A stretch of DNA of 64,000 nt from Epilithonimonas lactis (GTDB lineage: Bacteria; Bacteroidota; Bacteroidia; Flavobacteriales; Weeksellaceae): positions 62,001-126,000 of the forward strand of contig NZ_FOFI01000002.1 of assembly GCF_900110605.1 (NCBI RefSeq), read 5' to 3'. Below the pieces are notes generated by a model. That model was not told the DNA's origin. It worked only from the letters and a program-made list of their open reading frames with translations, and searched no databases. Numbering within the stretch: the stretch's first letter is position 1; every line of letters begins with the position of its first letter. The position numbers and the translations under genes were made by a program. This document shows, in pieces, positions 41,293 to 57,225 of the stretch.

Positions 41293-41688
41293 GGGGTTGA
41301 CTGGTTTCGACAGCAAGGCCAATGGGTAAGTAAGCATGCAGAGAACCGTAGCGCGATCTCTTAAATCCCTTGCTACACACTTTTAACTGGCAACGAAGAG
41401 TTCGCTCTTGCAGCTTAATCCGAAGCTTAGTAGGATCCAGCGCTTTCCCGAAGATAGTAAGGAAGCAAGATGTCTCACAAACGCTCTGTTCTGCGGCGTT
41501 TGATTCTGGGGCATAGCAATGCAGAAATAAGGTTTTGGGAACTTCGACCAAAATTCGAAAATTTTAGAAGATAAGGTTTAGGTTGGGTGTTTGCTCTCTG
41601 CCTGAGCTCGAAAATCAATAGCGAAATAAGCATGTAGAAATCTTATGTATTGCTTGTTTGGACGAGGGTTCGAATCCCTCCAACTCCA
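41293..41688 (+). ncRNA. ssrA: Transfer-messenger RNA (tmRNA)
   Basis: Rescues stalled ribosomes. The 5' end GGGGTTGACTGG TTTCGACA is the universal tmRNA start, and GGGGTTG pairs with CAACTCC at 41681-41687 to form the acceptor stem. The T-arm is GAGGGTTCGAATCCCTC. The tag frame at 41389-41418 is inside. CCA is not encoded (discriminator A is followed by CGC). The 3' end is the attachment site of the islands downstream and remains a functional sequence after integration. Confidence 0.97.
41389..41418 (+). other. tmRNA tag peptide reading frame (GNEEFALAA)
   Basis: GGC AAC GAA GAG TTC GCT CTT GCA GCT TAA encodes GNEEFALAA. It ends in the ALAA degron recognised by ClpXP-type proteases in other bacteria. 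The resume codon is taken as GGC from this ending and the length; the exact first codon is inferred. Confidence 0.85.
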
Positions 41689-41689
41689 C
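41675..41689. repeat. attL core in the 3' end of ssrA
   Basis: TCCCTCCAACTCCAC. It is repeated exactly at 57211-57225, and its last 13 bases at 53183-53195, the three boundaries of the two tandem islands. Confidence 0.85.
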
Positions 41690-41691
41690 GC

Positions 41692-41726
41692 AAAACCCTG
41701 TAAATTGTTAATTTACAGGGTTTTTT
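41692..41726 (+). terminator. Terminator after ssrA
   Basis: AAAACCCTGTAAATT and AATTTACAGGGTTTT form a 15-bp stem with a 3-base loop and a T run. It lies on the island side of the attL core, so the element appears to supply ssrA with a new terminator. Confidence 0.92.
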
Positions 41727-41732
41727 ATTCCA

Positions 41733-41756
41733 AGGTGCTAGTTTAGGTGCTAGTTT
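41733..41756. repeat. Tandem 12-bp repeat near attL, possible integrase arm sites
   Basis: AGGTGCTAGTTT occurs twice in tandem. Closely related copies lie at 53044-53067 at the other end of island 1, directly before the integrase start codon. The location at both ends suggests binding sites for the integrase. Confidence 0.7.
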
Positions 41757-41863
41757 TAAATAATTTCTTTTTGAAAAAAACTTTAAACCAATAATTATTA
41801 CTACTTAAAGAAAATTGTTTTTCTACTATACATATCTCTTAAAGTATTTCTACCTTAGCAACA

Positions 41864-42295
41864 TCACTCAAAAGCCATTCTCAATGGCATCTTAAAAGTA
41901 GAACGAACATAATCCCCATCCATTTTACCTGGAATCCATTTCATTTTAATCGATTTAACTGCAGCTATAACCGAAGAATTAAATTGTGCATTTTTTCCTT
42001 CAGATTTTAGATCAGTCACTGTTCCATCTTTTTCAATAGTAAAACTCAGTTCACTTGATACTATTCCTTTAGCTTCGATTTTAGAAAGATCCAGATTCTC
42101 AGTAAACTTCTTCCTGAATGCATTAATTCCTCCTGGAAACTCCGGCGCTTGTTCTACCTCATTGTAAATTTTGTTGTTATCCGTTTTTGATTCTTTTGTA
42201 TTTTGGGGATATGTTTGAACTCCAGTTGTGGGCAGTTCCTGAGCATAGGAAATGATTGATAAAAGCAATCCTATAAGTGTTATTTTTATTTTCAT
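41864..42295 (-). CDS. Exported TonB C-terminal domain protein
   Basis: A 143-residue protein with a signal peptide (KITLIGLLLSIISYAQE) rather than a membrane anchor. The TonB-C-like domain covers about residues 48-143, with APEFPGGINAFRKKFTENLD, SSELSFTIEKDGTVTD and KWIPGKMDGDYVRSTFKMP. Such short exported relatives are common in Bacteroidetes. Whether it energises receptors is doubtful without an N-terminal anchor and Pro-rich linker. Cargo of island 1. Confidence 0.85.
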   Translation of the reverse strand: MKIKITLIGLLLSIISYAQELPTTGVQTYPQNTKESKTDNNKIYNEVEQAPEFPGGINAFRKKFTENLDLSKIEAKGIVSSELSFTIEKDGTVTDLKSEGKNAQFNSSVIAAVKSIKMKWIPGKMDGDYVRSTFKMPLRMAFE

Positions 42296-42489
42296 TTAAA
42301 TAATTTTTACAAGTAATTGATCGTTTTGTGAGACTGATTACTTATTTTTTTATCAATATTACTAAGTAAAAAATTGCAAGATTACAAAATACATATATTT
42401 CGAACTTGGCTAAATTAATATTTTTTAATACTAATTATCGATTTTCTAAATTTAATCTTACAGTTTCATTTTTAGCACTATTTTAGTAT

Positions 42490-43350
42490 ATGGAAAAAAT
42501 GTTAAATCATATCAGACAGATATCTTATCCTATAAATGCACAACGATATGAGTATGAATACGAAGTTAACTCCTCACCTTTGGGCAGAAATGATTTTTAT
42601 AAGATTTGGCTTATTCAAAGCGATACAAGACTTCATTTTAACGACAGGTCAGTATATATCAATAAGCCTGCAATTTTCTTCAGTAATCCTAATGTTCCTT
42701 ATGGTTATGATATTTTAAGTGAGCAGCAGAAAGGATACTATTGTGTTTTTAAAAAAGAATATCTAAATATTTTGGCACTGAAAGAAAATGCAATGGGTTC
42801 ACCTATTTTTAATGCAGACAATGTTGATATTTTTTTTCCTGAACCAAAACAGCTTGAAACGATTATAAACATATATAATTTATTAATTAATGAACTTAAC
42901 ACCGATTTTTCATTTAAGGAAGAAGTTGTTAAATATTACATATATCTTCTGATTTATGAGGGTCTTAAAATTCAGAATAATAAAGCCTTACCATCAAAAA
43001 ACTCTGTAAAAAGGATTGCTTATCAATTTTTGGAATTGCTTGAAAGGCAATTCCCGTTACAATCGCCCAATCAATACCTTAAGTTGCGTATGGCTTCCGA
43101 TTATGCATCATTATTAAATATTCACGTGAATTCACTCAATAAAGCTGTAAAAGAAATCACCGGAAAAACTACCACTCAGCACATTTCTGAAAGAATTTTA
43201 AATGAAGCAAAAGCACTATTGAAATATAGCGGCTGGAATATATCCGACATCGCATACGCACTGGGTTTCTCTTACTCCAATCATTTTGATACTTATTTTA
43301 AAAAAAGAGAAGGCATAACTCCTTCTGAATATAGAAAAATCAACATTTGA
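42490..43350 (+). CDS. AraC family transcriptional regulator
   Basis: A 286-residue protein with an N-terminal cupin-like sensing half (about 1-160) and two C-terminal helix-turn-helix units: YASLLNIHVNSLNKAVKEIT and NISDIAYALGFSYSNHFDTY, followed by KKREGITPSEYRK. The second HTH with GFSYSNHF is the AraC signature. It is 79 bases upstream of the SDR gene in the same direction and probably controls it. Confidence 0.93.
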   Translation: MEKMLNHIRQISYPINAQRYEYEYEVNSSPLGRNDFYKIWLIQSDTRLHFNDRSVYINKPAIFFSNPNVPYGYDILSEQQKGYYCVFKKEYLNILALKENAMGSPIFNADNVDIFFPEPKQLETIINIYNLLINELNTDFSFKEEVVKYYIYLLIYEGLKIQNNKALPSKNSVKRIAYQFLELLERQFPLQSPNQYLKLRMASDYASLLNIHVNSLNKAVKEITGKTTTQHISERILNEAKALLKYSGWNISDIAYALGFSYSNHFDTYFKKREGITPSEYRKINI

Positions 43351-43401
43351 ATTTTGTAGTTATTGCAGTGAAAAATATACTTTCTTGAGTCGCCTTATCT
43401 G

Positions 43402-43409
43402 TAATTTTG
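43402..43409 (+). promoter_or_regulatory. Candidate -7 promoter element of the SDR gene
   Basis: TAATTTTG matches TAnnTTTG, 20 bases before the SDR ATG. TTTC at 43381-43384 lies 17 bases upstream as a weak -33 element. Confidence 0.5.
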
Positions 43410-43429
43410 TAATCAAATAAATAAAAAAA

Positions 43430-44326
43430 ATGTGGACAATAGAAAATATTCCTAATCAATCAGATAAAACTGCCATTGTTACAGGAGCCAACGCAGGTAT
43501 AGGATATCAAACAGCATTGGCTCTTTATGAAAAGGGTGCTGATGTGATCATCGCTGCCAGAGATGAAGATAAAATGAAAATGGCTGTTGAAAAAATTAGT
43601 AAAATATCTGGAAATGGCAGTATTTCCTATATGGTTTTGGATTTAGGAAATCTAAAATCTGTTTCCGATTTTGCATCTGATTTTAAAAGCAAATACAAAA
43701 AATTAGATCTTCTGATAAATAATGCCGGAGTAATGGTTCCTCCAGCAGGAAAAACCGTAGATGGATTTGAACTTCAGTTTGGTATTAATTTTATTGGCCA
43801 CTTTGCATTAACCTGCTACTTATATCCTTTATTAAAAGATACTAAAGACAGCAGAGTTGTAACACTTAGCAGCGGTGCTCATAAATTGACTGATACTATC
43901 GATTTTGAAAATGTCCGATTGGAAAAACCTTATGATGCAAGATCTTCATACGCAATGAGTAAGTTGGCTGATATAACTTTCGCTATTGAGCTACAGAGAA
44001 GAATTAATACGAAAGGAGATCACATTATTTCAGTATCATCTCATCCTGGAGTTACTAGAACCGATCTTCAAAGACATCTTGATAATCTTGAAGAAAGATT
44101 TGCAGCATACCCCGCAGTCATGGAGGCACCCCAAGGAGCATTGTCAACTTTATATGCAGCTACTTCCCCGGATATTACAGGTGGAGAGTATTATGGTCCT
44201 GATGGTGAAGGAGAATTCTCTGGATTTCCAGCAAAAGCCTCCATCGGTGAAAATGCAAAGGATCCAAACTTAGGAGAAAAATTGTGGCGTTTTGCAGAAA
44301 ATAGTACTAATCTATTTTTTCCGTAA
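43430..44326 (+). CDS. Short-chain dehydrogenase/reductase
   Basis: A 298-residue Rossmann-fold oxidoreductase of the retinol-dehydrogenase-like group. The nucleotide motif is TGANAGIGYQTAL, with AARDEDK after beta 2, VLDLGNLKSV, LLINNAGVMVPP, the catalytic Ser in VVTLSSGAHK and the active-site SYAMSKLADITF (YxxxK). The Arg after beta 2 points to NADP. The substrate is unknown. AraC plus SDR is a common stress or aldehyde-reduction module, and here it is island cargo. Confidence 0.93.
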   Translation: MWTIENIPNQSDKTAIVTGANAGIGYQTALALYEKGADVIIAARDEDKMKMAVEKISKISGNGSISYMVLDLGNLKSVSDFASDFKSKYKKLDLLINNAGVMVPPAGKTVDGFELQFGINFIGHFALTCYLYPLLKDTKDSRVVTLSSGAHKLTDTIDFENVRLEKPYDARSSYAMSKLADITFAIELQRRINTKGDHIISVSSHPGVTRTDLQRHLDNLEERFAAYPAVMEAPQGALSTLYAATSPDITGGEYYGPDGEGEFSGFPAKASIGENAKDPNLGEKLWRFAENSTNLFFP

Positions 44327-44395
44327 GCCTTAAATAATCTGTTCTAACTATATCGTAATCTAAAATTTATCGATATTGTTACATCCTGAAATAGT

Positions 44396-44426
44396 AAAAA
44401 AAAACGTTTTTTGAGACGTTTTTTTA
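44396..44426 (+). terminator. Terminator of the SDR gene
   Basis: AAAAAACGT pairs with ACGTTTTTT (9 bp) around TTTTTGAG, followed by T. It lies about 70 bases past the SDR stop. Confidence 0.75.
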
Positions 44427-44517
44427 TGTTTACAAAATCGGATAACACCAAACATTCAGCAAACAAATTTTCTAGGATTACAAGTAAGTATTAAGCATCT
44501 TTGGATTGGCGAACTTT

Positions 44518-45074
44518 TTACTTTTTAATGCCCATTTTTTTAATTTCTTCGTCCGTATGATGATCAAGAATTTTAGCATACCTGTAAAAAGTTGCTCTGG
44601 TCAATCCGAAGGGCTTATAAATATCTTCCGGACGTTTAGTGACATCTTTGTATATAGTGCGCAGAAGTAGTAGTTTAGAAATTGTTTCTTTAGTATAACC
44701 CTTAGGTCTACCTCCCAATCTACCTCTTGCTCTTGCAGATTGTAAACCAGCATTTGTTCTTTCTCTAATTAATTCTCTTTCATATTCAGCCAAAGAAGCC
44801 ATTAAATTTAAGAAAAGTCTCCCATTAATAGTTGAAGTATCAACACCATCTACAAGACCTTTTATGATAATTCCTTTATCGCTTAAACTTAAAACAAGAT
44901 CAATAATGTTTTTTTAAGCTTCGACCTAATCGATCAAGCCGCCAAACATAGAGTTCGTCACTTTCTCTAAACTGCTCAATCATTTTATCAAGTTCCGGGC
45001 GATTTTTTGTTGCACCCGAAATTTTCTCCTGATAAATTTTTTCACAGCCTGCTTTTTCTAAGGCTTCAATTTGT
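44518..45074 (-). pseudogene. Serine recombinase (resolvase/invertase), frameshifted and N-truncated
   Basis: Reading on the minus strand, QIEALEKAGCEKIYQEKISG and ELYVWRLDRLGRSLK are in one frame, and NIIDLVLSLSDKGIIIKGLV, SLAEYERELIRERT and the HTH end (FGLTRATFYRYAKIL) are in another. The break is a run of seven A at 44911-44917; six A would restore a continuous protein. The first 20-25 residues with the catalytic Ser are missing, and a TAA precedes QIEAL in frame. The gene therefore cannot make an active recombinase. Confidence 0.85.
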
Positions 45075-45085
45075 TAAAGGTGTCA

Positions 45086-45178
45086 TCAATCAATCCAGCG
45101 AGATTGCCTGCTTAATTGGTTGCTTCCTTGCTTTCCTGCATCCTTGCTATCTTGAATTCTTGCTTCCTTGATTGCCAT
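45086..45178 (-). other. Short degenerate-repeat segment with a 30-residue frame
   Basis: Between the relaxase and the resolvase remnant. The minus strand has a run of GGAAGCAAG/AGCAAGGAT-like words at about 9-base intervals. It encodes a frame beginning MAIKEARIQDSKDAGK, with a stop 30 residues later, rich in Lys, Gln and Ser. It may be the remnant of a longer coding repeat or a minisatellite. No function can be assigned. Confidence 0.35.
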
Positions 45179-45215
45179 CAATCAAAAGAGATTACTCTGC
45201 AATACCTTACGATTA

Positions 45216-46376
45216 TTAGAGTCTTTTTCTCTTTCTTTTATTTTGAATTGGAATATCCTCAGCCTCATAATTGGTACTGTTATTACCGAATTGCAACAGA
45301 GAGAAGAGCTGATTTGTGATCTCAGTATCTTTAAAAATCTCATTGAAGGCTGAAAATGGAACCGTATTTTCCTGTGAAATTTTTTGTGCGATTTTTTCCA
45401 TTTCTGATATCAACTTTTGTCTATCTGTTCTATCCAGGTGTGGATTTCTAAATCTTGAAAATTTGATTTCCCTCTCAACAATATTAATAACAGAATCCAG
45501 ATATTTTTTCTTTTCAGAAGCAAAAACTGTCGGATTGGTCAATAGTACAGCGTTTTTGTTTTTGGATAGATGCACCTGTTTTTTTAAATCACCAACCTTT
45601 GTATTGAGCTCAGTAATTTGCTTCGACTTAGATTCCAACTCCGTTTTATTTTTTAGAAGTATGCTTTTGTATGTTCGAAATGCTTTTTCATAATTGTCAA
45701 TGGTCTTGTCAGTCTTAATTTTTTTAAAACCTAGAAAATCATTTTCCTTGACAACCAGCTCCTCCGATTTTGTAGAACCCATCTCAGATCTCATCGTTTC
45801 ATATCTTTCTTCCAACACTTTGAGATCTTCTTCTTTCTGCTGAATCTTAAACTCAATCGCTTCCAATCTTCCTCTGGAACCGGAAATACCTCTTTCCATA
45901 TTCAGGCATTCTGCTGTCAGATCCTGCATTTTTGAATAATGAAATGATTGGTGTTTAAGTGTTTTGCCAGTATTCAGATCCTGCCAGTCAGCTACCAAAT
46001 GAGCGTGGTAATTGGGTTTCCATTCTTTCGTATCTTTATCGGTATGCCCTTCATCTTTATGAATAGTAATTTGAAAAACACGGATGCTCAATTCTTCTTC
46101 CAGTCTCTTGGCTAGGTTTTGAAGCTCCAGCATCGTTGTATCTTCTTTGATCACGACAACCGCTTCCCGAACAGGCATTGCATTCTTCTGTAATTTTCTT
46201 CCTGACTTTTCTTTGCAATACGCTTCGATCTTTTGAATCCTGTCAGCTATTTTCTGTTCCATCCAATATTCATTCTTTGGCGTCAGATCTTTACGGATAT
46301 AATCGAAAGTTTTCTTCCTGAAATTATGGGTTTCAGAATCGGATTTAACTTCTTTGAAATTAATAGAAGTCTTCAT
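45216..46376 (-). CDS. MobV-like relaxase / mobilization protein
   Basis: A 386-residue protein. The N-terminal 150 residues hold the relaxase signatures: FQITIHKDEGH (His 106, Glu 109, His 111) and PNYHAHLVADW (HxH at 124 and 126), as in Pre/MobV enzymes that nick oriT. The conserved KMQDLTAECLNMERG helix follows. Residues 170-300 are strongly coiled-coil, and the C-terminus is basic (QNKRKRKRL). It would nick and lead a single strand for transfer through a helper secretion system. Confidence 0.85.
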   Translation of the reverse strand: MKTSINFKEVKSDSETHNFRKKTFDYIRKDLTPKNEYWMEQKIADRIQKIEAYCKEKSGRKLQKNAMPVREAVVVIKEDTTMLELQNLAKRLEEELSIRVFQITIHKDEGHTDKDTKEWKPNYHAHLVADWQDLNTGKTLKHQSFHYSKMQDLTAECLNMERGISGSRGRLEAIEFKIQQKEEDLKVLEERYETMRSEMGSTKSEELVVKENDFLGFKKIKTDKTIDNYEKAFRTYKSILLKNKTELESKSKQITELNTKVGDLKKQVHLSKNKNAVLLTNPTVFASEKKKYLDSVINIVEREIKFSRFRNPHLDRTDRQKLISEMEKIAQKISQENTVPFSAFNEIFKDTEITNQLFSLLQFGNNSTNYEAEDIPIQNKRKRKRL

Positions 46377-46439
46377 TGCTTTTACATCTTTGTTGTTTTA
46401 CAGTTTTATGCTTTTATTTCTTTGTTTGAAGTTGTTGTA

Positions 46440-46640
46440 GTTATATTACTCAGCTTTACATTTTACCTGTGTTTATTTTACACAACTTCCATTAGAATGA
46501 TCTAGGTCTTTTTTACACAGGTTCAATAAGCTAACCTGATATTATTTTACTCAGGTTAAGCCTCGCAGAGCGTCTTAGAAACTTTGTTGGGAGGCACGAC
46601 CTTCAAAGTTGCGAATGCGCTCCTAACTTCTGCGTGTAGT
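46440..46640. other. Inverted-repeat region upstream of the relaxase gene, possible oriT
   Basis: Non-coding region between the relaxase and primase genes. ACCTGTGT (46465-46472) is complementary to ACACAGGT (46515-46522). CAGGTT (46518-46523) pairs with AACCTG (46533-46538), which pairs again with CAGGTT (46552-46557). TTTTAC precedes several copies. A GGAG/CTCC flanked block follows at 46590-46623. The place next to the relaxase and the nested palindromes suggest oriT or relaxase promoter control; the nick site is not identified. Confidence 0.5.
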
Positions 46641-46664
46641 TGGTAAAAAATACAGCACGCTTGA

Positions 46665-47648
46665 TCACCGTTTCCTTTTAAATCCATTTGATCTTTTGAT
46701 CTCCTGCCCCTGATTTCTAACTTCTTGTTTATCCTGTACTGGAAATTTTTCAGATTGTTCAGCTGCCTTATTTGATAGATTATTTTTCATTCTGTGTATC
46801 AAAAATTCGTTGAGATCTTTATGGTTTGAATAGATACCTGAATGGTCTTTTGCTTCCGGAAAAGATCTTATAATCTCAGATCTGCATTTAATTCCCGCAG
46901 TATCGTTGTCCAGAAAAAGATGGATATCAGGATAGTTTTTCAGATGTTCTAAGGATTTATTTAAAAGAGCAATGGAATTCATCACAAGAATATCTCCTGC
47001 AAAAGACTTTTGCAATTCAATAAAAGACAGTGCATCCATAAAACCTTCAAAAACCGCTACACCTTTGACATCTCTATCTTGAATATTTGATATATTCTGA
47101 CCATTGCTGCTGAGATTTATTAGTGAACAATCCTTTTTCAATAATGAACTTTTGTAAAAAGCATTACGCAATTCAAAACCGCCAGATAAGTTCTCAAAAC
47201 CAATGGCGTAGAGTTTCTTGCTTCCTATGGTAAATCGTACTTCTTTTATGTAATCATAGACTTTAGGACTTAATGCTCGTCCCTTCAAATATTGTTTCAG
47301 GTTAAGATTCTGGAGATCGAGTATTTCATCGATTTTGTAATTTGGTTCAAGCTTTTTGATCTGTTGTTGCTGATGAAAAGAAGAAAAATTTTGCTTCGCT
47401 GCCCAATCCAGAACTTCATTGACCGAAGTGTTCAAATATTTTTTCATAAAATCGGTGTTGTTACCACCTAGACCCTCTGAGTGAAGATACCAGGCATTGA
47501 TTCTTTTATCCAATTTAAAAGAGGCTTGGGATTCGCTGGCAAAGGGGTTGAGATACCAAGCTTCTTTTTCATTTTGTTTAGTTGGAAGGTGTCCGAGAGA
47601 AAGGAGGACTTCTTCCAACGATATGCTGTTGAATTGATTGCAGTTCAT
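46665..47648 (-). CDS. Toprim domain DNA primase-like protein
   Basis: A 327-residue protein. The N-terminal 90 residues resemble a CHC2-type primase zinc-finger region, but lack the usual cysteines (LPTKQNEKEAWYLNPFASES, NAWYLHSEGLGGNNTDF). The Toprim domain follows, with GVAVFEGFMDALSF (catalytic Glu) and HLFLDNDTAGIKC (DxD). This layout is common in mobile elements of Bacteroidetes. It likely primes replication after transfer, together with the primase-helicase encoded upstream. The tail is basic (KRSNGFKRKR). Confidence 0.85.
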   Translation of the reverse strand: MNCNQFNSISLEEVLLSLGHLPTKQNEKEAWYLNPFASESQASFKLDKRINAWYLHSEGLGGNNTDFMKKYLNTSVNEVLDWAAKQNFSSFHQQQQIKKLEPNYKIDEILDLQNLNLKQYLKGRALSPKVYDYIKEVRFTIGSKKLYAIGFENLSGGFELRNAFYKSSLLKKDCSLINLSSNGQNISNIQDRDVKGVAVFEGFMDALSFIELQKSFAGDILVMNSIALLNKSLEHLKNYPDIHLFLDNDTAGIKCRSEIIRSFPEAKDHSGIYSNHKDLNEFLIHRMKNNLSNKAAEQSEKFPVQDKQEVRNQGQEIKRSNGFKRKR

Positions 47649-47740
47649 TTTTTTTTGATTTTTATTGTTTTTAGTAATACTCAGTCTGCATCCTGTTGTT
47701 GATAGTGGATGAGTTTGTTTTTAAGTAATTTTTGATGAAT

Positions 47741-47885
47741 TGATGAGAAATTCCTATAAGGGACTGATTAATAATAAATTAAAGTCTCATCAAAGTCTCA
47801 TCATCTCATCAAATATGAAATATTCTTCTCATCATCCTCTCATCAAAAACCAAGGTTGAAAAATTTGATGAGGCTTTTGATGAGA
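47741..47885. repeat. Iteron-like cluster of TCTCATCA
   Basis: Five exact direct copies start at 47785, 47796, 47804, 47827 and 47838. Exact inverted copies (TGATGAGA) lie at 47741 and 47878 and a near copy at 47866. Two neighbouring pairs are 11 bases apart, about one helical turn. The cluster lies in the gap between the primase and primase-helicase genes. It resembles an iteron origin or an operator array for the replication genes. Confidence 0.8.
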
Positions 47886-47916
47886 TGTAACTAATTGATT
47901 TTAATTTAATTACCAA

Positions 47917-49155
47917 TTAATTCATCATTTCATCAAATCTTTGAAGAATAAAATTCCTTTCAACTGTAAAATAACGCCCTGTTTTGTTCTGTTGGAAAAA
48001 ACTTAAACCATAATCGAGGTCGTATTTGATATAGGACAAAGAATTACTTTGAGGTTCGAGTTTCCAGTTCTCTTTCAAGATTTTTCGGACATCATTTACC
48101 GTCCAATATTGTTTGCTGAACATCTTGCCGAGCATATTGAAAATATCCTGAGGAATACAATGGATCTTGCAATCTTCATTACTTTCGAAAAACTCATATA
48201 AAAGCTCGATGATCTTGGATTCCAGTTTATTGTTGTTCTTCCAAACCAATCTTTGGAGAGCCTTTGTTCTGATCTGTGAATCCGTGAACCACATCCTTGT
48301 CTGCTTACGACTGTGGAAAGGTCTTTGCATTAAGTATCGAAGAAAATAAGGAATCTCTCTGTTGAGATTTTTTAGAAATTCGGTGTTCTCGCTTTTGATT
48401 GATCTAACTTTGATAATCCAGAACCGAATTTCATTTTCATCGATCTGAATGAAGTTGTCTTCATTATTGGAACAGAGAATGAATTTGCCAAAGAATTCTA
48501 CCTCTTCACGGTCTTTTCCTTTGGCTTCCTTCTTGTCTTTGTCGGTGGTGGAAAGGTATTTTAAGCGTTCCGTAATTTCCTTTTTGTCGAAGAATACTTC
48601 ATCAATAGCTACTATCAGCATCGAAGTCCAATCTGAATTAAACTGACTGCTGAATGAGTCTCCTTTGATGTAGGTCATATTTAATCCAAAGATGGATTTC
48701 AGCCATTTGATGAAAGTAGATTTTCCAGTGGATCTTTCTTTACTTACCAAGCAGAGAATCGGAAGTATCTGTGTTGGATATTCGAGCAATATCTTGATGT
48801 AATCTAAACCTAACTCCAATTGCTCTCCGAAAATATGTTCCATAAATTTTAGTGAGAATGGAATTTTGTTTTCTAAAGTTTCAGGACTTATACTTTCATT
48901 GATTGGTTGATAAGGAATCTCATTGTAAATATTATAGAATCCGTCGATAATCTGCTTATAGTTAAGATGAGAAGGAATACAGCAGAACCCATCATACTTT
49001 GAAACTTTAGAAACGTAGATTTTTCCGTGGTCGCCAATTATCGTTTCACGGTTCCAGCGCACCAAAATTGAAATCTTGTCTCCTGAGATCAATGGCTTCT
49101 CAATAGTTTTATAATAGGTTGTGCCTACTCTGAGATATGGGATTTTTTCACTCAT
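47917..49155 (-). CDS. Primase-helicase family ATPase (mobile-element replication)
   Basis: A 412-residue P-loop ATPase with Walker A LVSKERSTGKSTF (about 137-147), Walker B MLIVAIDEVFF (Asp 185, Glu 186) and a sensor-like FILCSNNEDN. The C-terminus from 310 looks like a winged helix. This matches the DUF5906-type primase-helicase of islands and phages, a superfamily 3-like helicase. It would unwind DNA for replication of the excised element. The iteron cluster lies just downstream of its stop. Confidence 0.85.
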   Translation of the reverse strand: MSEKIPYLRVGTTYYKTIEKPLISGDKISILVRWNRETIIGDHGKIYVSKVSKYDGFCCIPSHLNYKQIIDGFYNIYNEIPYQPINESISPETLENKIPFSLKFMEHIFGEQLELGLDYIKILLEYPTQILPILCLVSKERSTGKSTFIKWLKSIFGLNMTYIKGDSFSSQFNSDWTSMLIVAIDEVFFDKKEITERLKYLSTTDKDKKEAKGKDREEVEFFGKFILCSNNEDNFIQIDENEIRFWIIKVRSIKSENTEFLKNLNREIPYFLRYLMQRPFHSRKQTRMWFTDSQIRTKALQRLVWKNNNKLESKIIELLYEFFESNEDCKIHCIPQDIFNMLGKMFSKQYWTVNDVRKILKENWKLEPQSNSLSYIKYDLDYGLSFFQQNKTGRYFTVERNFILQRFDEMMN

Positions 49156-49229: not shown

Positions 49230-49508
49230 TTATCTTCTGTACTTAAGCGATTTGACTTCGTTTAAAGCATCCATCAGATCAAAATGATTGACCCTGTAGA
49301 ATCTTCCGATTTGTTCCGCTTTAATGTTACCTTTTAAAATGTGTGAGCGTACGGTTTGATAATCGAGTTTTAGAATTTCTGAGCACTCTTTGATAGAGTA
49401 TAGTTTCTTTTTCAACTCAACTTCAGGTTCTTTTTTGAGAGAATAAAGTAAGTCTTTCACTTCCCCTAATTCGTCAAGAATGGTTTGGAATGGATTTGTT
49501 GTCTGCAT
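49230..49508 (-). CDS. Helix-turn-helix DNA-binding protein (excisionase-like)
   Basis: A 92-residue protein. An N-terminal helical segment (about 1-34) precedes a winged-helix domain of the MerR/excisionase type: LYSIKECSEILKLDYQTVRS followed by ILKGNIKAEQIGRFYRVNHFDLMDAL. Proteins of this form next to replication genes of islands act as excisionase or as regulators of the replication genes. It is 74 bases upstream of the primase-helicase in the same direction. Confidence 0.85.
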   Translation of the reverse strand: MQTTNPFQTILDELGEVKDLLYSLKKEPEVELKKKLYSIKECSEILKLDYQTVRSHILKGNIKAEQIGRFYRVNHFDLMDALNEVKSLKYRR

Positions 49509-50493: not shown

Positions 50494-50540
50494 AACTAAA
50501 AGATTCTTTTTTTATTCATTTGTTTTATCTTTTAATTTAT

Positions 50541-50654: not shown

Positions 50655-51050
50655 GATTTTAGTTTAATTTAATAATGTGCGAATTTAATTTTTTAACAAA
50701 ATTTATCTCTTCATTACAGAGAATTAATATGAATATTATCATATCATTGTGACAAATTTATACAGCCATAACGACAAATCTTGACGTATAATAAAAAAAT
50801 TGCAAAATGAAAGATTATGAAATAGAAGATATTAAATGACAAAAAACAAATATGAATTTAATGTAGATTAAATTTCTAGTTAGATCATGAAAGAATTTGA
50901 GATAAAAGCAAAAAATGAATACCGAAAATCATATTATTCTAAAAAATAGAACAAAAGAAAACTTGATTCTAACTCCCTCTTGAATATACGATTTCCTTGA
51001 CTAACATCGCTCACAGATAAATAATAACACAATCAATAAATTACTGATTC
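50655..51050. other. AT-rich gap without a recognisable gene
   Basis: About 400 bases. One CAAATTTA (50753-50760) reads TAAATTTG on the minus strand and could be an old promoter for the exported-protein fragment. Short frames are interrupted by stops in all phases. No hairpin of note was seen. Confidence 0.5.
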
Positions 51051-51785
51051 CTAAATATTTATATTAAACAACTTAGATAATTCTTGATAAATAATTTCTT
51101 CAAAGTCACTTGGTTTGACTGTAATTGCTCTTGAAAATGTTCCTTTATCAAATTTGGTATTATATTCGTTTTCCATAGCCTCAATAATTGTGGTATCTTG
51201 AAAATCTGGATTAATGATGTGATTGTCTTTTAGAAAACGGTGAATTCTTATAAATGATGATTTTTGATCTACCATCAAATTGTGATTTTCATCGATGAAT
51301 TTTTTGCCTTTTAAAAATCCGATGAAAATTTTAGAACTTTTATCACCAATCATAATATCTGATAAGCAAATTTCCCTATTAGTTTTACTTTCTAAGACGA
51401 AATAGAGAAAAAGTGTAGTTTCGGCACCATTTAAAAAATTCCCCTGCAACTTCATCAGATTACTTGAGCTTAGAAGACTTGTAGATTCTTTTTTGTATTG
51501 ATCTAAACAATAACGAATCTTCTCTTCAAAATTATGATTTCTTGATGTATCAATATCTTTGAAATGGAAGCTAAAAAAATTCTCTAAATTTTCATATTTA
51601 ATCAAAAACTCATTCCTCAATTTTTCATTGAGAGCGATTTTAGAGGATTTTTGTTTGGCTTTTTCAATTCTTCTCTGTAACAGCTTCTGAATTTTGTGTC
51701 CTCTCATCCAGTAATATATCATCATAGGATAGCCTACAAATTCTTCCCAAAAATTCCAACGTCCGTAAAGCTTTTTTTTATCCAT
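51051..51785 (-). CDS. Unknown island protein next to the integrase
   Basis: A 244-residue protein, Lys-rich and largely helical. After an aromatic N-terminus (WNFWEEFVGYPMMIYYWMRG) comes a basic helix (KIQKLLQRRIEKAKQKSSK) and a long hydrophilic region without cysteine pairs. The region 180-244 (FIRIHRFLKDNHII, GTFSRAITVKPSDFEE) looks compact. It is not a family I recognise. It starts 15 bases after the integrase stop and is probably co-transcribed with it, so a role in excision control is possible but unproven. Confidence 0.7.
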   Translation of the reverse strand: MDKKKLYGRWNFWEEFVGYPMMIYYWMRGHKIQKLLQRRIEKAKQKSSKIALNEKLRNEFLIKYENLENFFSFHFKDIDTSRNHNFEEKIRYCLDQYKKESTSLLSSSNLMKLQGNFLNGAETTLFLYFVLESKTNREICLSDIMIGDKSSKIFIGFLKGKKFIDENHNLMVDQKSSFIRIHRFLKDNHIINPDFQDTTIIEAMENEYNTKFDKGTFSRAITVKPSDFEEIIYQELSKLFNINI

Positions 51786-51800
51786 AATCTAAATTAGTGA

Positions 51801-53042
51801 TTATTGAAAAACCTCATTCATATAGTTGATCTTATCATCTTCGCTAGGTCTGTAATAAGCATTAAAGACCTCCAAACTAGTATGACCAGTATAACTCATA
51901 ATTACTTTATCCGGAACTCGTTTGTTCTTCATTATCGTGATGAAACTTCTTCTTGCTGTATGTGAAGAAATTCTTGTCCAAAATTCAGCTTTTTGATCAA
52001 CCAGTTCATCGCCATATTTCATAGTCTTCTTTATTTCATCAGTAAACTCTAGCTTTTTAAAAACCTCCTTAATATACTCATTCATCTTCTGATTTGTGAT
52101 ACTAGGCAGGTTATAATCATACTTTTCGAGTATTGATTTAGAAATACTGTTTAAAGGAATTGCTAGGTTTTTAGATTTACTTTTTAAATCGATAACTCGT
52201 ATGAAATTACCATCAACATCACTTTTTGAAATCGTGCTATAATTGCCAAACCTCATTCCTGTAGTGCATCCAAAAACAAAAAGGTCACGTACCCTTTCCA
52301 ATCTTTTGTTATCACTGAAGTCATAATTGTATATGAGCTCAACTTGTTCATAATTTAAAGCTATTTCATCAGTTGTGAATTTCGCAGGTTTTTTAAAAGT
52401 AATAAAATTGTTATTGTACGTATATTTTTTATTGAGAGCCCAAAGAAGGAAAGTTTTAAGCAAACCGACATTTCTATGTAATGTATTTGCAGAATGCTTT
52501 TTTTCTTCAATACAATACTTTAAAAACCTATTGTAAAGTTTATCATCAAATTTTCCCAGAGTAATCTTAACTTTACAATTGCTCTCAAAATCTTCTAGGA
52601 GATTCTTATTGCATTTGTAACGCTTTAAAGTAGAATTTGAAATTGAATTCCCAGTATAGTCATTTTCTTTCTCATCTAAAAACTCCTGATAAATTCTAAA
52701 GAAATCACTTTTAACAGTAATTTTTTTGAACTTTTCATCAAATCTTTGTTTAAGAATATCGACGGTAAGTTCTTCATTTATGTTCTTATATCGATTAACG
52801 ATCTCTGTAAAGAAACTGCTGTATCGATTTAATTGCATTTTGACGCTTCGATGAATTTCTGCCCTTTTAGTCCTTCCGTTTATGTCATTTGGTTGTCTGC
52901 CCTCAAAATCCCATTCGCTTGGTTTTATTTTCTCACCCGTAGAATAGATGAAATTCTTATTTTCATTGTTGAAAAAAGAACGAAAATAAATCAGAGATTC
53001 TTTTGTACCATTGGGTTGCTTGAGCTTGAAAGTATAATTCAT
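51801..53042 (-). CDS. Tyrosine site-specific integrase of island 1
   Basis: A 413-residue recombinase with the Bacteroidetes arrangement: an N-terminal arm-binding domain (KIKPSEWDFEGRQPND), a SAM-like core-binding domain (about 110-210) and a catalytic domain. Catalytic residues are Arg in GCTTGMRFGNY, HxxR in SSHTARRSF (His 361, Arg 364), His 387 in YTGHTS and Tyr 396 in FNAYY. It should join and excise the element at the 3' end of ssrA. Repeats before its start (53044-53067) recur near attL. Confidence 0.95.
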   Translation of the reverse strand: MNYTFKLKQPNGTKESLIYFRSFFNNENKNFIYSTGEKIKPSEWDFEGRQPNDINGRTKRAEIHRSVKMQLNRYSSFFTEIVNRYKNINEELTVDILKQRFDEKFKKITVKSDFFRIYQEFLDEKENDYTGNSISNSTLKRYKCNKNLLEDFESNCKVKITLGKFDDKLYNRFLKYCIEEKKHSANTLHRNVGLLKTFLLWALNKKYTYNNNFITFKKPAKFTTDEIALNYEQVELIYNYDFSDNKRLERVRDLFVFGCTTGMRFGNYSTISKSDVDGNFIRVIDLKSKSKNLAIPLNSISKSILEKYDYNLPSITNQKMNEYIKEVFKKLEFTDEIKKTMKYGDELVDQKAEFWTRISSHTARRSFITIMKNKRVPDKVIMSYTGHTSLEVFNAYYRPSEDDKINYMNEVFQ

Positions 53043-53043
53043 C

Positions 53044-53067
53044 AGGTGCCAGTTTAGGTGCTACTTC
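53044..53067. repeat. Tandem 12-bp repeats near the right end of island 1
   Basis: AGGTGCCAGTTT followed by AGGTGCTACTTC, related to the AGGTGCTAGTTT pair at 41733-41756 and in the same orientation. The first overlaps the integrase translation start region. They may be integrase arm sites and also allow autoregulation. Confidence 0.65.
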
Positions 53068-53182
53068 TTCTATATTTAGACATAAAAACTAAGTATATTA
53101 GCTTATATAAATATAGTTAAAATACTGATAAATAGACACATTATATATTTTAAATTATGTTAAAACATAATAGGTTCAAAAA

Positions 53183-53195
53183 CCTCCAACTCCAC
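53183..53195. repeat. Middle attachment core between the islands
   Basis: CCTCCAACTCCAC, identical to the last 13 bases of the ssrA core. The preceding bases AGGTTCAAAAA are a diverged version of the tmRNA T-loop GGGTTCGAATC. Confidence 0.85.
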
Positions 53196-53207
53196 ACCCC
53201 ACACAAC

Positions 53208-53235
53208 AAAGGCACTCTTTCAAGTGCCTTTTTTT
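53208..53235 (+). terminator. Terminator just right of the middle core
   Basis: AAAGGCACT and AGTGCCTTT form a 9-bp stem with a 6-base loop followed by a T run. The place, 12 bases past the attachment core, is where an ssrA terminator would be before island 1 arrived. Confidence 0.8.
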
Positions 53236-53351
53236 ATTTATTTTTCATTTCAAAAAACAACATCAACTACCTGTTAATCAGCATCAATACAGTGGTTTAT
53301 TGTTGTATAATATTTGCTTCCGTTTAAAGAAATCCTCGTAGATTACATAAT

Positions 53352-53429
53352 ATGGACAAAAACCTTCAAGAAATGAATTCCAAAATGAAAAATGGATTAG
53401 CTGCAATTAGGGCAGCTGGGATGATTTAA
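53352..53429 (+). CDS. Possible 25-residue peptide
   Basis: ATG-initiated frame MDKNLQEMNSKMKNGL and a short Ala-rich end, followed 22 bases later by a terminator. No ribosome binding site or relative is known to me, so this may be chance or the remnant of a longer gene. Confidence 0.25.
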   Translation: MDKNLQEMNSKMKNGLAAIRAAGMI

Positions 53430-53450
53430 GGTTGCATCTTAGGAAAATAA

Positions 53451-53480
53451 AAAAAACCTCTCAGAAATGGGAGGTTTTAT
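53451..53480 (+). terminator. Terminator
   Basis: AAAACCTC and GAGGTTTT form a stem extended by weaker pairs toward the loop, with T on the right. It follows the possible small peptide frame. Confidence 0.65.
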
Positions 53481-53636
53481 TAATTATCAAAGAATCCGAA
53501 TTTTTTGATTGAAATAATTATTAAATCTTCTTGGGAGTCAAAATTTTGTTTTATTCTTGACATCTTTTGGTGTTTAAAAACTAAATTATTAGATAATTTT
53601 TATTTTAATAAATAATATTGATTCATTTAAACTAAA

Positions 53637-53676
53637 TAGTTATAAATCTTGCTAAAGTAGTTATAAATCTTGCTAA
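53637..53676. repeat. 19-bp direct repeat with 21-bp period
   Basis: TAGTTATAAATCTTGCTAA at 53637-53655 and 53658-53676. The CTTGCT word recurs as CTTGCTTA in the next 90 bases and upstream of the Schlafen-like gene (55289-55323), also with a 21-base period. Confidence 0.8.
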
Positions 53677-53749
53677 CAATAATTAAGCAACTCACTGTAA
53701 ACCACTTACGCCACCTACAACCTCTTGCTTATAATTGCTTAAATATTGC

Positions 53750-55207
53750 TTATTGCTTTTTAAATCGATACACTGCGTTTTTATCTCGTTGTTTTTCGGA
53801 TAGTCTATCTAGCATACCATCATCTATCATTTTATTTAAATAAGTACGTACAGTATTTTCATTTATATTGATATAATCCACTATTTCCCCTAAAGTAGCA
53901 GTATGTCTAATAAATAAAAATAACAATATCCTCCGCTGTGTTTCATTGTATTTTTTCCAGTCTTTTTCAATCTTTTCCATTACTGTATCATGAATAGTCT
54001 TTGAATGACGGCTAATTCTATTTCTTAATACTAAATAAACATTTCCGTTTTTTTCGCTGTATTCAGGAACTGAAAGCATTGATTTTTCCATAGACTCATA
54101 AATTCTAGAAACACCTTCATTCAATTGACGTACATACCCAAGGTCTTCCAGTACTCTGGCTATTCTAGGATTTCTTGCAAAACGTTCCGATTTTATATTC
54201 TCAATTGTTACCTGAGCCGGTAAAGGTCCGCTATTGCTTATTTCTAGACGATCATCAAAGTGTTTTATGTATATTGCATTACCCTGAACATTATAGGAGC
54301 GGTGACAAAGCGCATTTACAATACCTTCAAGCCAAGCTTCCTCAGGATATTCTGGAACTTTAACAAATCGGCCTGTATCAATATCTAAAAAGTAATAGTC
54401 TTTAAAAGAAGCTTTTAAAAACAGTTTAATTTCTTCTAGTAGCCGAGGTATATTATTTTCAAAACGCTCGTCTTTAATTACATTATGACTCGATCCAGTT
54501 AGTGCAGTGATTCCTTCGTAACGAATATAACGCATTGATGCAGAAGGAATATATTTTTCAGGGTCGTTGGCAAATAACAGTACTGCAGCATTTTTAAACA
54601 GGTGTACATCTTCCTTCTTCTGCGTCAAGTGTCGCTTAGTCAGAAGATCATAAGCATCACCTTTATAATTCAATTTTTGTCTGTATTCCTCTAGTAATTC
54701 TTGATCGAAGTCATCAATATCAAAATTTTTTGAGCTTTCCTCTTCAAAACGTCTTATAGATTTATCGTATTCAAGCTTCTTAATTCTGTCTCGATCCAAA
54801 AGCCGATTTGTATCTAATACTCTCAAATACACATTATCGCTATCTTTTTGACAAAACACTCTTTCTAAATCTTGTTCTACATGAAATAGAAATATTAATT
54901 TATCATCTATTTCTATTTCTTCCAATTGGATATTACAGGGAGGCTTGATAAAGTCAAAGGCTAGCTTACGATAAGAATCAATTTTATCTCCCAAAGTATT
55001 CAAATCCTCAATTGCCCCATTATCGGCTACACCAAAAACTAAAATTCCGCCGTCTGCGTTTAACATACCGATTAATTCTTCAGCTATTTTTGCTGGCTTA
55101 ATATCCTTTTCACCTAAGCCCTTTCTTTCAAAGTATTGATTTTCTCTTTGTGTTTGTAAATATTCTAGAGTAACTATTGTATTTATTTTGGAAATAGGAG
55201 TATTCAT
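53750..55207 (-). CDS. Schlafen/AlbA_2 ATP-binding transcriptional regulator-like protein
   Basis: From the ATG at 55207 (MNTPISK) the protein has 485 residues. An AlbA_2 domain covers roughly 10-140 (FERKG, AEELIGMLNADGGILVFGVADN). A GHKL-type ATPase region follows in the middle (AWLEGIVNALCHRSY, DDRLEISNSGPLP), and a winged helix at the end (TLGEIVDYININENTVRTYL). This is the architecture of RecG-like or Schlafen-type regulators. An ATG at 55267 would add 20 residues that look non-native. The gene is isolated and flanked by matching repeats on both sides. Confidence 0.85.
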   Translation of the reverse strand: MNTPISKINTIVTLEYLQTQRENQYFERKGLGEKDIKPAKIAEELIGMLNADGGILVFGVADNGAIEDLNTLGDKIDSYRKLAFDFIKPPCNIQLEEIEIDDKLIFLFHVEQDLERVFCQKDSDNVYLRVLDTNRLLDRDRIKKLEYDKSIRRFEEESSKNFDIDDFDQELLEEYRQKLNYKGDAYDLLTKRHLTQKKEDVHLFKNAAVLLFANDPEKYIPSASMRYIRYEGITALTGSSHNVIKDERFENNIPRLLEEIKLFLKASFKDYYFLDIDTGRFVKVPEYPEEAWLEGIVNALCHRSYNVQGNAIYIKHFDDRLEISNSGPLPAQVTIENIKSERFARNPRIARVLEDLGYVRQLNEGVSRIYESMEKSMLSVPEYSEKNGNVYLVLRNRISRHSKTIHDTVMEKIEKDWKKYNETQRRILLFLFIRHTATLGEIVDYININENTVRTYLNKMIDDGMLDRLSEKQRDKNAVYRFKKQ

Positions 55208-55288
55208 TTTACACTTGCTTATTTTAGTAATAATCTTGTTTATTAATTTTAAACTATTGAAATTCAATAATTCTACTGTCTTCTCGGC

Positions 55289-55323
55289 GCCTTGCTTAAA
55301 TTGAAATAAGCCTTGCTTAAATT
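55289..55323. repeat. Two 14-bp direct repeats upstream of the Schlafen-like gene
   Basis: GCCTTGCTTAAATT at 55289-55302 and 55310-55323, period 21. A third CTTGCTTA lies at 55213, next to the start codon at 55207. They may be operator sites for the gene product or a regulator. Confidence 0.75.
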
Positions 55324-55398
55324 TCCTTAAAAATAGTAAAAATCATCAAACTATCACTAAGCTCAAAAATTACAAAGTAATCGCTTAAAAACTAACCA

Positions 55399-55671
55399 AT
55401 GGATTTACAAAAATTTTTAGCAGCGCCAACCGACAAAATGAGTAGCCGTGAGATTGCTCAATTGACTGGAAAAGAACATCAGCACGTACTTCGCGATTGT
55501 GATAAACTCAATGAAAATTACATCAAATTAGATCTATCCACAATTGGACAGACCTCTTATAAAGATTCTGCTAACCGTGACCAACGTAAATTCCTTCTTA
55601 CCAAAATGCAGACAATGGACCTAATGACCGGATATAACATCGAGTTACGGGAATCTTCGCAACGCTTTTAA
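55399..55671 (+). CDS. Rha-type phage regulatory domain, C-truncated
   Basis: A 90-residue frame with KMSSREIAQLTGKEHQHVLR, a Rha N-terminal domain, and FLLTKMQTMDLMTGYNIELR. Intact relatives continue with KVNRRWxELE after ELR, but here the frame ends ESSQRF. The C-terminal part of phage-type Rha regulators is missing, probably by frameshift or deletion. DNA binding through the N-terminal wing is still possible. Confidence 0.7.
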   Translation: MDLQKFLAAPTDKMSSREIAQLTGKEHQHVLRDCDKLNENYIKLDLSTIGQTSYKDSANRDQRKFLLTKMQTMDLMTGYNIELRESSQRF

Positions 55672-55727
55672 GTATAATTTATCAAGAATGAAACAATCGA
55701 GGGATTTGGCAGGATAAAAATTTAGCT

Positions 55728-55835
55728 ATGGAATTTTTAAATGCAACTCGGGATTGCAATATAAAATCAGGAGAGGAAAAAGATACTATTGAGATTGTGT
55801 GTAAAAAATGTGATGTTGAGTTGGTAGAAAATTAG
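55728..55835 (+). CDS. Possible 35-residue protein with a CxxC
   Basis: Frame MEFLNATRDCNIKS ending CKKCDVELVEN. It lies 56 bases after the Rha fragment. The CKKC pair could bind a metal, but the frame is short and unrecognised. It may belong to the decayed Rha region. Confidence 0.3.
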   Translation: MEFLNATRDCNIKSGEEKDTIEIVCKKCDVELVEN

Positions 55836-55876
55836 ATCAAATCCTTTTTACCATTTACAAAACAATTCCATTTATG

Positions 55877-55884
55877 TACATTTG
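55877..55884 (+). promoter_or_regulatory. Candidate -7 promoter element
   Basis: TACATTTG matches TAnnTTTG, 17 bases before the ATG of the unknown gene at 55902. Confidence 0.55.
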
Positions 55885-55901
55885 TAATAAAAATAGAAAT
55901 T

Positions 55902-56315
55902 ATGAAAGTGAAATTTGGAGAAAATATCGTAGTCAATTACGATGGTATTTTAATAAACGATAATTATCTGATAGAATTTTCCCGCTTATGGGAAACACGT
56001 GATTTTGATGGAGTATTATTATGGGATTGGATGCTTCACATTACAGAAAAAGAATGGGTAAACTCAACAAACATTGGTGACTTTAATACTGCATTTTTCT
56101 TCGCACAAGATTTATTTATAAAAAATAAGCCACTTCATATAATTGATGCTTCTACTTTACAGACGATTTATATTCAACAACAAAAATTGCATGCAAAAGA
56201 TGCTTTCTTAGCGAAGCGATCAGAGGCTGAAAGACCAGGTGTAATAAATGTAGTAGACATTTTTGAAGATTATAACGAAAATGATTTTGAATTATTAAAA
56301 GTTGAACTTTTTTAA
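55902..56315 (+). CDS. Unknown 137-residue island protein
   Basis: A soluble, acidic protein with no signal peptide or membrane helix. It is rich in Trp, Phe and Asp (FSRLWETRDFDGVLLWDWML; NTAFFFAQDLFIKNKPLH) and ends FEDYNENDFELLKVELF. It has its own -7 element. I do not recognise the family. The size, acidity and solo position in an island would fit an immunity or anti-defence protein, but nothing in the sequence proves this. Confidence 0.65.
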   Translation: MKVKFGENIVVNYDGILINDNYLIEFSRLWETRDFDGVLLWDWMLHITEKEWVNSTNIGDFNTAFFFAQDLFIKNKPLHIIDASTLQTIYIQQQKLHAKDAFLAKRSEAERPGVINVVDIFEDYNENDFELLKVELF

Positions 56316-56490
56316 AGCATCAAGATTATCCTCAATCCAATAAGGCAAACTCGCAGAATTCGAAACACGCTCTTTGTATTGACTGTGAAAGGAAATGAAA
56401 ATCAAATTTCGGATAATAAGTAATCGGTTTTAAGGGAAACCGTAAAGAATATTGGAATAAAATCTATTACTTTGAAATTAAATAATCAAA

Positions 56491-57052
56491 ATGAAAAATG
56501 TATTACTATTATTTATTATTAATTCATCATTATTTTTTGCACAGTCATTGCCTAGAATCGAAAATGATACGTTATACACCACATCTGGCTACAAATTGTA
56601 TCCTAAACTAGAAGTTAGATAGGTGTTGGTACAATGCCGGACGGGGATTTTAAGTACATAAGAACAAATTCGGCATCACTTTTTAATTACACTTCGACTA
56701 CTGGCTACCAAGGTTTAGCAAACCAGGCCAATTCCCTTCCAAGAAACAATTCTGGATTGAAGTACGTTATTAAAAAAGTAGAAGAAAGAGGTTCTAAAAG
56801 AGAGGGTTTAATTACTATGTCGTTCTAAAAAATGTGATTGCATACGAAGTTGATGTTGAAAATGCGATAAGAACAGGAGAACTTGAATTGCCTGAGAAAT
56901 TAAGAAAAACCATTCCCACAAACGACACTGGTAAAATGCCGACGACTGATAAATATGACAAATTAAAAAAGCTCAAGGAATTATTGGATTCTGGAATTCT
57001 CACACAAGAAGAATTTAAGACTGAGAAAGACAAAGTAATTGCAGAAAATTAA
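56491..57052 (+). pseudogene. Exported SHOCT-domain protein, two frameshifts
   Basis: Frame pieces join to a protein with a signal peptide (KNVLLLLFIINSSLFFAQ), a middle region (MPDGDFKYIRTNSAS, LKYVIKKVEERGSKREG) and a C-terminal SHOCT motif (KLKKLKELLDSGILTQEEFK). The first break is near 56619 (AGATAGG where AGAATAGG restores frame) and the second near 56808 (GGTTTAAT where GGTTTTAAT restores frame). Both are single-base losses in homopolymers. Confidence 0.85.
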
Positions 57053-57210
57053 ATAATGTAGAAAATGAAGCTTTGAAAACAACTTTTATTTTCTGACAAC
57101 TGAAATTATCCTCTTCAAAGCAATTTTGGTGATTTTAAAAAAAATTCATCTACTACAAAAAATTACAACAAATACTGCTTAATTAATTGATTTTCAAACA
57201 ATAAACATAG

Positions 57211-57225
57211 TCCCTCCAACTCCAC
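57211..57225. repeat. Right attachment core of the island pair
   Basis: TCCCTCCAACTCCAC, identical over 15 bases to the ssrA 3' end at 41675-41689. This is the boundary with the chromosome on the right. Confidence 0.85.

Follow-up and report, generated by a model that had tools for sequence, protein, structure and literature searches.

A probable stack of different mobile elements sharing the 3′ end of ssrA as landing site in Epilithonimonas lactis

Genomic islands lying in tandem downstream of ssrA, the gene of transfer-messenger RNA (tmRNA), are known from Dehalococcoides, where they are bounded by short copies of the ssrA 3′ end; some of them lack integration genes, and the relevant part of PMC3146451 proposes cis-mobilizable elements and accretion. 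For integrative and mobilizable elements (IMEs) and cis-mobilizable elements (CIMEs), PMC5704250 describes how tandems arise in three steps: one element integrates, it decays, and a second one then integrates. Tandem accretion at the tmRNA gene is therefore not a novelty in itself; what is new here is a member with tyrosine integrases in Epilithonimonas. It is found in a stretch of 64,000 nucleotides of Epilithonimonas lactis (hereafter ‘the window’; RefSeq assembly GCF_900110605.1, contig NZ_FOFI01000002.1, positions 62,001 to 126,000), in which ssrA is followed directly by island 1 (41690–53195) and then by island 2 (53196–57225). No description of tandem ssrA islands in Flavobacteriia-type genomes was found among the titles and abstract openings of the papers listed in searches aimed at this site. 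In the passages of PMC9366087 and PMC5458099, tmRNA appears solely where genes are tallied or figures explained, and the nearest experimental work found, judging from the excerpt of PMC6764341, concerns a tRNA-Arg island in Riemerella.

The locus is best understood as a stack of different mobile elements that have one landing site in common, the 13 bp at the 3′ end of ssrA, a reading to which a probability of roughly 0.88 is assigned. The shared core comprises the last 13–15 bases of ssrA. A preliminary description of this DNA had reported that this end recurs as 15 bases at 57211 and as 13 bases at 53183, and both are exact matches. The 13-mer CCTCCAACTCCAC occurs three times on the forward strand and never on the reverse strand of the 4.09-Mb genome, all three copies being at the ssrA stack, and the reversed-pattern control gave no occurrence in the same genome. 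When up to two mismatches are allowed, four copies of the 15-mer are found in the window for 0.04 expected. The fourth of these, on the minus strand at position 3166 with two mismatches, is irrelevant to the stack. The G+C content is 0.32 in the left segment and 0.31 in the right one, compared with 0.395 and 0.388 in the left and right flanks. Folding of the 76 bases after core copies 1, 2 and 3 yields −23.2, −11.9 and −20.7 kcal/mol, respectively. The gene upstream of ssrA is the same one in all eight relatives compared (G003, G004, G009, G010, G012, G013, G015 and G020). At the level of the family, represented by 296 genomes drawn evenly from a larger group, the 13-mer is present in 232 genomes and reaches at least three copies in 21 (a table counted by eye), these counts taking in copies wherever they lie in a genome, at ssrA or not.

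The preliminary description had also proposed that two islands stand in tandem, the left one with an integrase and mobilization genes and the right one older or integrase-less, and this view is supported, the two islands being of different types. The left part carries a tyrosine integrase of a family designated A and a putative mobilization gene; the right-segment proteins that were scanned include no integrase. Relatives offer the empty site (G012 and G020), the site with A but no B (G013 and G015) and a full-length element of a second type, B (G004). Island 1 is apparently a complete A-type integrative element with its own integrase. Island 2 is, on comparison of the sequences, an internally deleted B-type element that has kept both outer ends and lost the integrase.

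The evidence for the latter comes from G004, in which the element immediately next to ssrA is a full-length B of 16,984 bp (L095:1112–18095); the tyrosine integrase that it encodes shares 25.7% identity with that of A. Island 2 matches this element on the left from base 3 to base 137 (84.6% identical), the homology ending before B's left repeat copies and integrase, and on the right over the last 810 bases, core included (89.4%). No DNA match to the integrase, D5-like primase, DUF6371 and tape-measure-like genes of this B element was found in island 2, and its SHOCT-domain gene, open in G004 (187 aa), is broken in the window. Past B in G004 come a core copy, an A-type left end and the contig end; another contig carries the A integrase, a core and a short-chain dehydrogenase/reductase (SDR) gene, the counterpart of which is at 59361–60353 in the window. 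A second B-type element of 16.4 kb (integrase 75.6% identical) is found in G262 behind a first unit of 26 kb. The repeated motif of B is ACTACAAA. In G262 each end has two copies spaced by 12 bp, and the left end has a further copy in inverted orientation. In G004 the right end carries a pair, with a mismatch in one copy, and the left end carries three copies that stand apart, of which one is inverted and one has a mismatch. Island 2 keeps the right pair, with a spacing of 13 and one mismatch, and the left copies were not found in it. The protein of the window's genome that comes closest to the B integrase shares 29% identity with it. The B element of G004 is possibly phage-satellite-like: it encodes a 1285-aa protein matching tail tape-measure families, and no relaxase was recognised in the 10 proteins scanned among its 15 larger open reading frames (ORFs), so that the parent of island 2 may not have been an IME or an integrative and conjugative element.

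The states of the site were compared in 23 genomes of the genus, the window's included, the stretch read past ssrA in the 22 others being 0.3 to 38.5 kb each; for G001, G002, G005, G006, G007, G011, G014, G016, G018, G019 and G022 the comparison covers no more than what follows ssrA in that stretch. The site is empty in G012 and G020, where the SDR gene follows ssrA and the genome has a single core copy. A stands without B between ssrA and the SDR gene in G013 (27.5 kb, with the tip of a third type, D) and in G015 (22.9 kb). A is followed by a decayed B in G000, the window's own genome, and B is followed by A in G004, the reverse of the order in the window. In G003 an element of 16.8 kb with GTTGGTACAA pairs precedes a D element of 26.5 kb, and in G009 an element of 12.1 kb precedes a D left end. 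An A-type left end with a second core at 18.1, 7.8 and 2.35 kb is found in G017, G008 and G021, respectively; the match to the A integrase in G008 is incomplete and contains a stop, and in G021 the search gave no A integrase. G010 has neither A nor B, and a shortened D tip (the first 79–89 bases) is followed by a hydrolase gene, a kinase gene and then the SDR gene. A further core copy of G010, off ssrA on another contig (L146, G010:C6:25799), has TTGTTCCC repeats nearby, perhaps those of a further integrase type. The gene set of 41.7–57.2 kb, which the preliminary description took to have been inserted, is in none of the stretches read from the 22 other genomes, not all of which are long enough to span it.

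The ends of the A-type elements are marked by paired repeats. The pattern GGTGCYA-N5-GGTGCYA occurs three times in the whole genome, twice at the ends of island 1 and once on contig C8. At A left ends, the core is followed by a hairpin and by the repeat pair at ~45 bases from the core. The 12 left ends considered were chosen by the hairpin behind the core, so its presence at all of them is a selection criterion; both repeats are present at 10 of them, nine times as GGTGCYA and once, in G021, as GGCGCYA, the remaining two being the second unit of G004 with one repeat and G016 with none. For the right ends, 32 named A-integrase loci (L027–L058) were available, 24 of them with an exact core by the integrase and eight without one there. 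The A-type pair lies beside the core in all 24, at 127 and 139 bases from it in 21 and within 10 bases of these distances in three. In G019 (L150, G019:C1:870192), far from ssrA, a single core is bordered by an A right end on one side and by an A left end on the other, and this junction is as would be expected of an attachment site of the element (attP), here within a chromosome. The paired repeats may be arm-type integrase sites, to judge from where they stand, from their conservation and from the way in which tyrosine integrase sites are known to be laid out; a literature search on arm-type sites in Bacteroides gave nothing relevant. The polarity of the integrase gene differs among types, with that of A at the right end reading leftward and those of B and D at the left end reading rightward.

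The boundary given for the right island in the preliminary description, 57225, has to be amended in part: a core copy does end island 2 there, but the flank beyond it is not simply chromosome. The 133 bp at 57226–57358 share 89.5% identity with the left end of a D element, that of G003 (26.5 kb), in which the integrase frame starts 265 bases from the core. A plain chromosomal flank from 57226 was dropped as an interpretation, given that in G003 and G009 these 133 bp form the left end of another element, one that bears an integrase. In the window, as in G013, G003 and G009, the D pair, GGTARCA-N5-GGTAGCA, is separated from the core by 115 or 116 bases. The window's genome has the pair this once; it is also found near the right core of G003's D, and it was not found in the shortened tip of G010. 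Recognition of the D tip led to G010 being re-read from an empty site to a shortened D tip, which leaves G012 and G020 as clean empty sites. In view of the match, an older third relic probably follows island 2, and the stack probably extends to ~59.3 kb, the segment 57226–59345 being probably a third, older unit that would have lost its integrase and right core. The hydrolase and kinase genes, found at this place in three of the seven genomes read to the SDR gene (window, G010 and G013) and not in the four others (G004, G012, G015 and G020), are possibly leftover cargo of this unit. Except for one match of 34 bases, the region 57286–59314 has no further match to the D elements of G003 and G009.

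Other explanations of the locus have been considered. The repeats are short, at 13–15 bases, and the right segment might be ordinary chromosome in which the copies at 53183 and 57211 are due to chance or are unrelated repeats. The probability of this is negligible: the genome-wide 13-mer counts rule out chance repeats, the ends of island 2 coincide with the ends of the full-length element in G004, and a seven-genome comparison shows the segment in the window's genome only. A single composite island of 15.5 kb that entered as a unit, the middle repeat being the relic of an older fusion, would agree with the position of both parts between ssrA and one flank and with the joint transfer of such tandems described in PMC5704250. 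It is nevertheless quite improbable, since the two parts match elements standing in opposite order in G004, G013 and G015 have A but no B, and the outer right end has B-type rather than A-type repeats.

It is somewhat less improbable, although still unlikely, that island 2 still works as a cis-mobilizable element and departs together with island 1 by recombination between the outer cores. Core copies do stand on both sides of it, such movement is proposed for integrase-less Dehalococcoides ssrA islands (PMC3146451, in the part cited above), and in G215 a first unit of 10.3 kb, with an A left end and cores, precedes an A element, the A, B and C integrases not having been found in that unit by tblastn. 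This has to be set against the lack of any A-type repeat found near the outer core, the absence of B's left repeat copies from island 2 and the distance of the closest B-like integrase of the genome. For the same three reasons, only half of the earlier suggestion that the islands might be excised separately or together is retained. Excision of island 1 alone with its own integrase is plausible, paired repeats being present at both ends, and joint excision, or excision of island 2, with the genes present here is unlikely. If the repeats are arm-type integrase sites, island 1 alone would be expected to leave, with island 2 stranded and staying in place unless an integrase from elsewhere were able to act on its damaged ends.

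The stack of distinct elements remains the preferred reading, and several points weigh against it. Excision, circular forms and transfer of the islands are predictions from the sequence. The middle 3.1 kb of island 2 has a single collinear match to the B element of G004 (~40 bases, B position 13174) and two further short matches that are not collinear, and part of it may therefore have arrived separately. The A element of G004 is split over two contigs, and G012, one of the two empty sites, is a partial draft (73% complete). The third A-type pair, on contig C8, adjoins no recognised island; the relaxase call in island 1 depends on the names of some homologs; and the third unit has no right-hand core, which makes its far boundary uncertain.

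The history of such a stack can be proposed as follows. A B-type element would have come first to ssrA by means of its own, distantly related integrase and would then have lost this integrase and much of its interior, the outer ends remaining as island 2. Island 1 would have inserted later, its integrase joining the attP core of the circle to ssrA, and would have displaced island 2 outward; the D-type tip beyond would probably be a still older arrival. As follows from the sequences, strand exchange would take place within the 13-bp core, so that the 3′ end of the tmRNA gene would be restored and a new terminator-like hairpin placed behind it. This site is seen in an unusually full range of natural states: empty, with A but no B, with B before A, with A before a decayed B, and with a third relic. 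The steps of tandem accretion and decay thereby become directly readable. A broader proposal, held tentatively and at slightly less than even odds, is that the ssrA 3′ end serves in this family as a shared docking bay for at least four tyrosine-integrase types, each bringing its own ssrA terminator and each labelled by its own repeated motif, mostly with a spacing of 12 bp (GGTGCTA, ACTACAAA, GTTGGTACAA and GGTAGCA), with one 13-bp core, both polarities and either stacking order; the label would decide which units leave, and its loss would strand a unit. This offers a testable rule, namely that end repeats determine which stacked unit can leave.

The coordinates of the features are collected in Table 1.

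Table 1. Features of the ssrA locus, with positions in the window and the basis of each assignment (int, integrase gene)
Feature	Position	Strand	Basis or remark
ssrA (tmRNA gene), integration target	41293..41689	+	ARAGORN; Rfam RF00023
Repeat copy 1, core bounding island 1 on the left	41675..41689	+	Exact TCCCTCCAACTCCAC, 3′ end of tmRNA gene
Terminator-like hairpin, left end of island 1, directly after ssrA	41690..41726	+	
Paired end repeat GGTGCTA-N5-GGTGCTA, putative arm-type sites, end distant from int	41734..41752	+	
Island 1 cargo: TonB_C-like protein (−), AraC regulator (+), short-chain dehydrogenase (+)	41864..44326		Pfam
Serine resolvase/invertase, C-terminal fragment, remnant	44518..44802	−	Pfam PF00239 positions 117–144 of 145
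Putative MobV/Pre-type relaxase (mobilization protein)	45216..46376	−	Names of homologs
Toprim/DnaG-like primase	46665..47648	−	PF13155; dnaG below cut-off (NCBIfam)
DUF5906/P4-type primase-helicase-like protein	47917..49155	−	PF19263; TIGR01613 below cut-off
HTH_17/excisionase-like small protein	49230..49508	−	PF12728; TIGR01764 just below cut-off
244-aa int-adjacent protein, no assigned function	51051..51785	−	ORF list; relatives' loci
Tyrosine integrase, family A	51801..53042	−	PF00589, PF13102
Paired repeat GGTGCCA-N5-GGTGCTA of the int end, putative arm-type sites	53045..53063	+	
Repeat copy 2, core dividing islands 1 and 2	53183..53195	+	Last 13 bases of TCCCTCCAACTCCAC
B-type left tip with hairpin	53196..53333	+	Match to G004's B
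AlbA/Schlafen and HATPase_c_4 (RecG-C-terminal-like) protein, 505 aa, open	53750..55267	−	PF04326, PF13749
Phage pRha/anti-repressor gene, N-terminal piece, 90 aa, truncated	55399..55671	+	PF09669; PHROG
137-aa protein without family match	55902..56315	+	Pfam, PHROG scans
B-type right end, including broken SHOCT-domain gene (56491–57052) and two B-type repeat copies near core	56428..57225	+	
Repeat copy 3, core bounding island 2 on the right	57211..57225	+	Exact TCCCTCCAACTCCAC, 15 bases
Left tip of D-type element with pair GGTAACA-N5-GGTAGCA at 57340–57358	57226..57358	+	
Alpha/beta hydrolase and PAS histidine kinase	57286..59314	+	Pfam; relatives

Island 1 is probably mobilizable, presumably by conjugation. 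Its putative relaxase has 2369 homologs; among the 120 matches listed, a few are named ‘Mobilization protein’ or ‘Plasmid recombination protein/enzyme’ and the majority are labelled ‘hypothetical’. No relaxase match was found for it in Pfam, NCBIfam or PDB, the PDB search giving two chance-level matches and nothing else, and a PDB search with the island 1 integrase gave no match. No families of type IV secretion systems were found among the 11 island 1 proteins scanned, the smaller ORFs being outside the scan. The TonB_C match of the cargo protein is below the Pfam cut-off, as is the NCBIfam match of the resolvase fragment below its own. Like island 1, NBU1 carries a primase gene. In island 2, the AlbA/Schlafen protein matches PADLOC profiles, with pAgo as best match (6e-42), perhaps through a shared domain. 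Flavo-1 RNA matches (Rfam RF01705) are found at 41024–41133, just upstream of ssrA, and at 63416–63535.

The A family is widespread in relatives. A-type integrases are found in 45 of the 296 family genomes (E up to 1e-120), the window's own counted, the others being 73–99% identical to it; two of the 45 matches have a stop inside, and the named records include Chryseobacterium, Soonwooa, Kaistella, Elizabethkingia and Epilithonimonas. For the DNA of the integrase gene, the best of 42 loci compared is G289 (95.7% identical). The set of Mob, Toprim, DUF5906, HTH and int genes is also complete in G017 and G289; the first four are present in G276 within the stretch fetched, its integrase being known from the family-wide integrase search. 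Homologs of the 244-aa protein are found in the A elements of G004, G013, G015, G017, G071, G215 and G289. The Mob gene of the window has no tblastn match in the stretches read of G013, G015 and G004, and in G013 and G015 other ORFs separate the Toprim gene from the cargo. The second element of G004 on contig C16 (end of L095 and L114) is A-type, and its cargo resembles metal-efflux genes by ORF starts. In a metagenome-assembled genome of Flavobacteriia, a 3′ part of ssrA (L038:5772–5992, 221 bases, ~80% identical) lies 4 kb past an A right end.

Comparison with described systems places this stack among known types of islands while setting it apart from each of them. As in the tRNA and tmRNA islands treated by Islander (PMC4383910), the target gene is restored, a displaced fragment lies at the far end and tandems are recognised; Islander requires an integrase in each tandem member, so that island 2 would go uncalled, and any finder demanding an integrase per unit would miss this right-hand unit. 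Island 1 resembles NBU1, NBU2 and related Bacteroides IMEs, as summarised in the pertinent part of PMC5704250, in having a tyrosine integrase, the 3′ end of an RNA gene as target and a putative mobilization gene; it differs in its target, which is ssrA instead of tRNA-Leu or tRNA-Ser, and in its putative relaxase, which is MobV-like by homolog names instead of MobP. The IME–CIME tandems covered in the same source share with the present locus a decayed element that keeps putative attachment sites beside a later arrival, and distantly related integrases with the same site preference. They differ in that the decayed unit here lacks one set of end repeats, and in that its full-length relative encodes a tape-measure-like protein and has no recognised relaxase in the 10 proteins scanned. 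The Dehalococcoides islands, as portrayed in the excerpt of PMC3146451, are likewise tandem islands at ssrA, some of them integrase-less; they involve a serine recombinase and a 20-bp repeat, whereas the stack described here, in Bacteroidota, involves several distantly related tyrosine integrase types and a 13-bp core.

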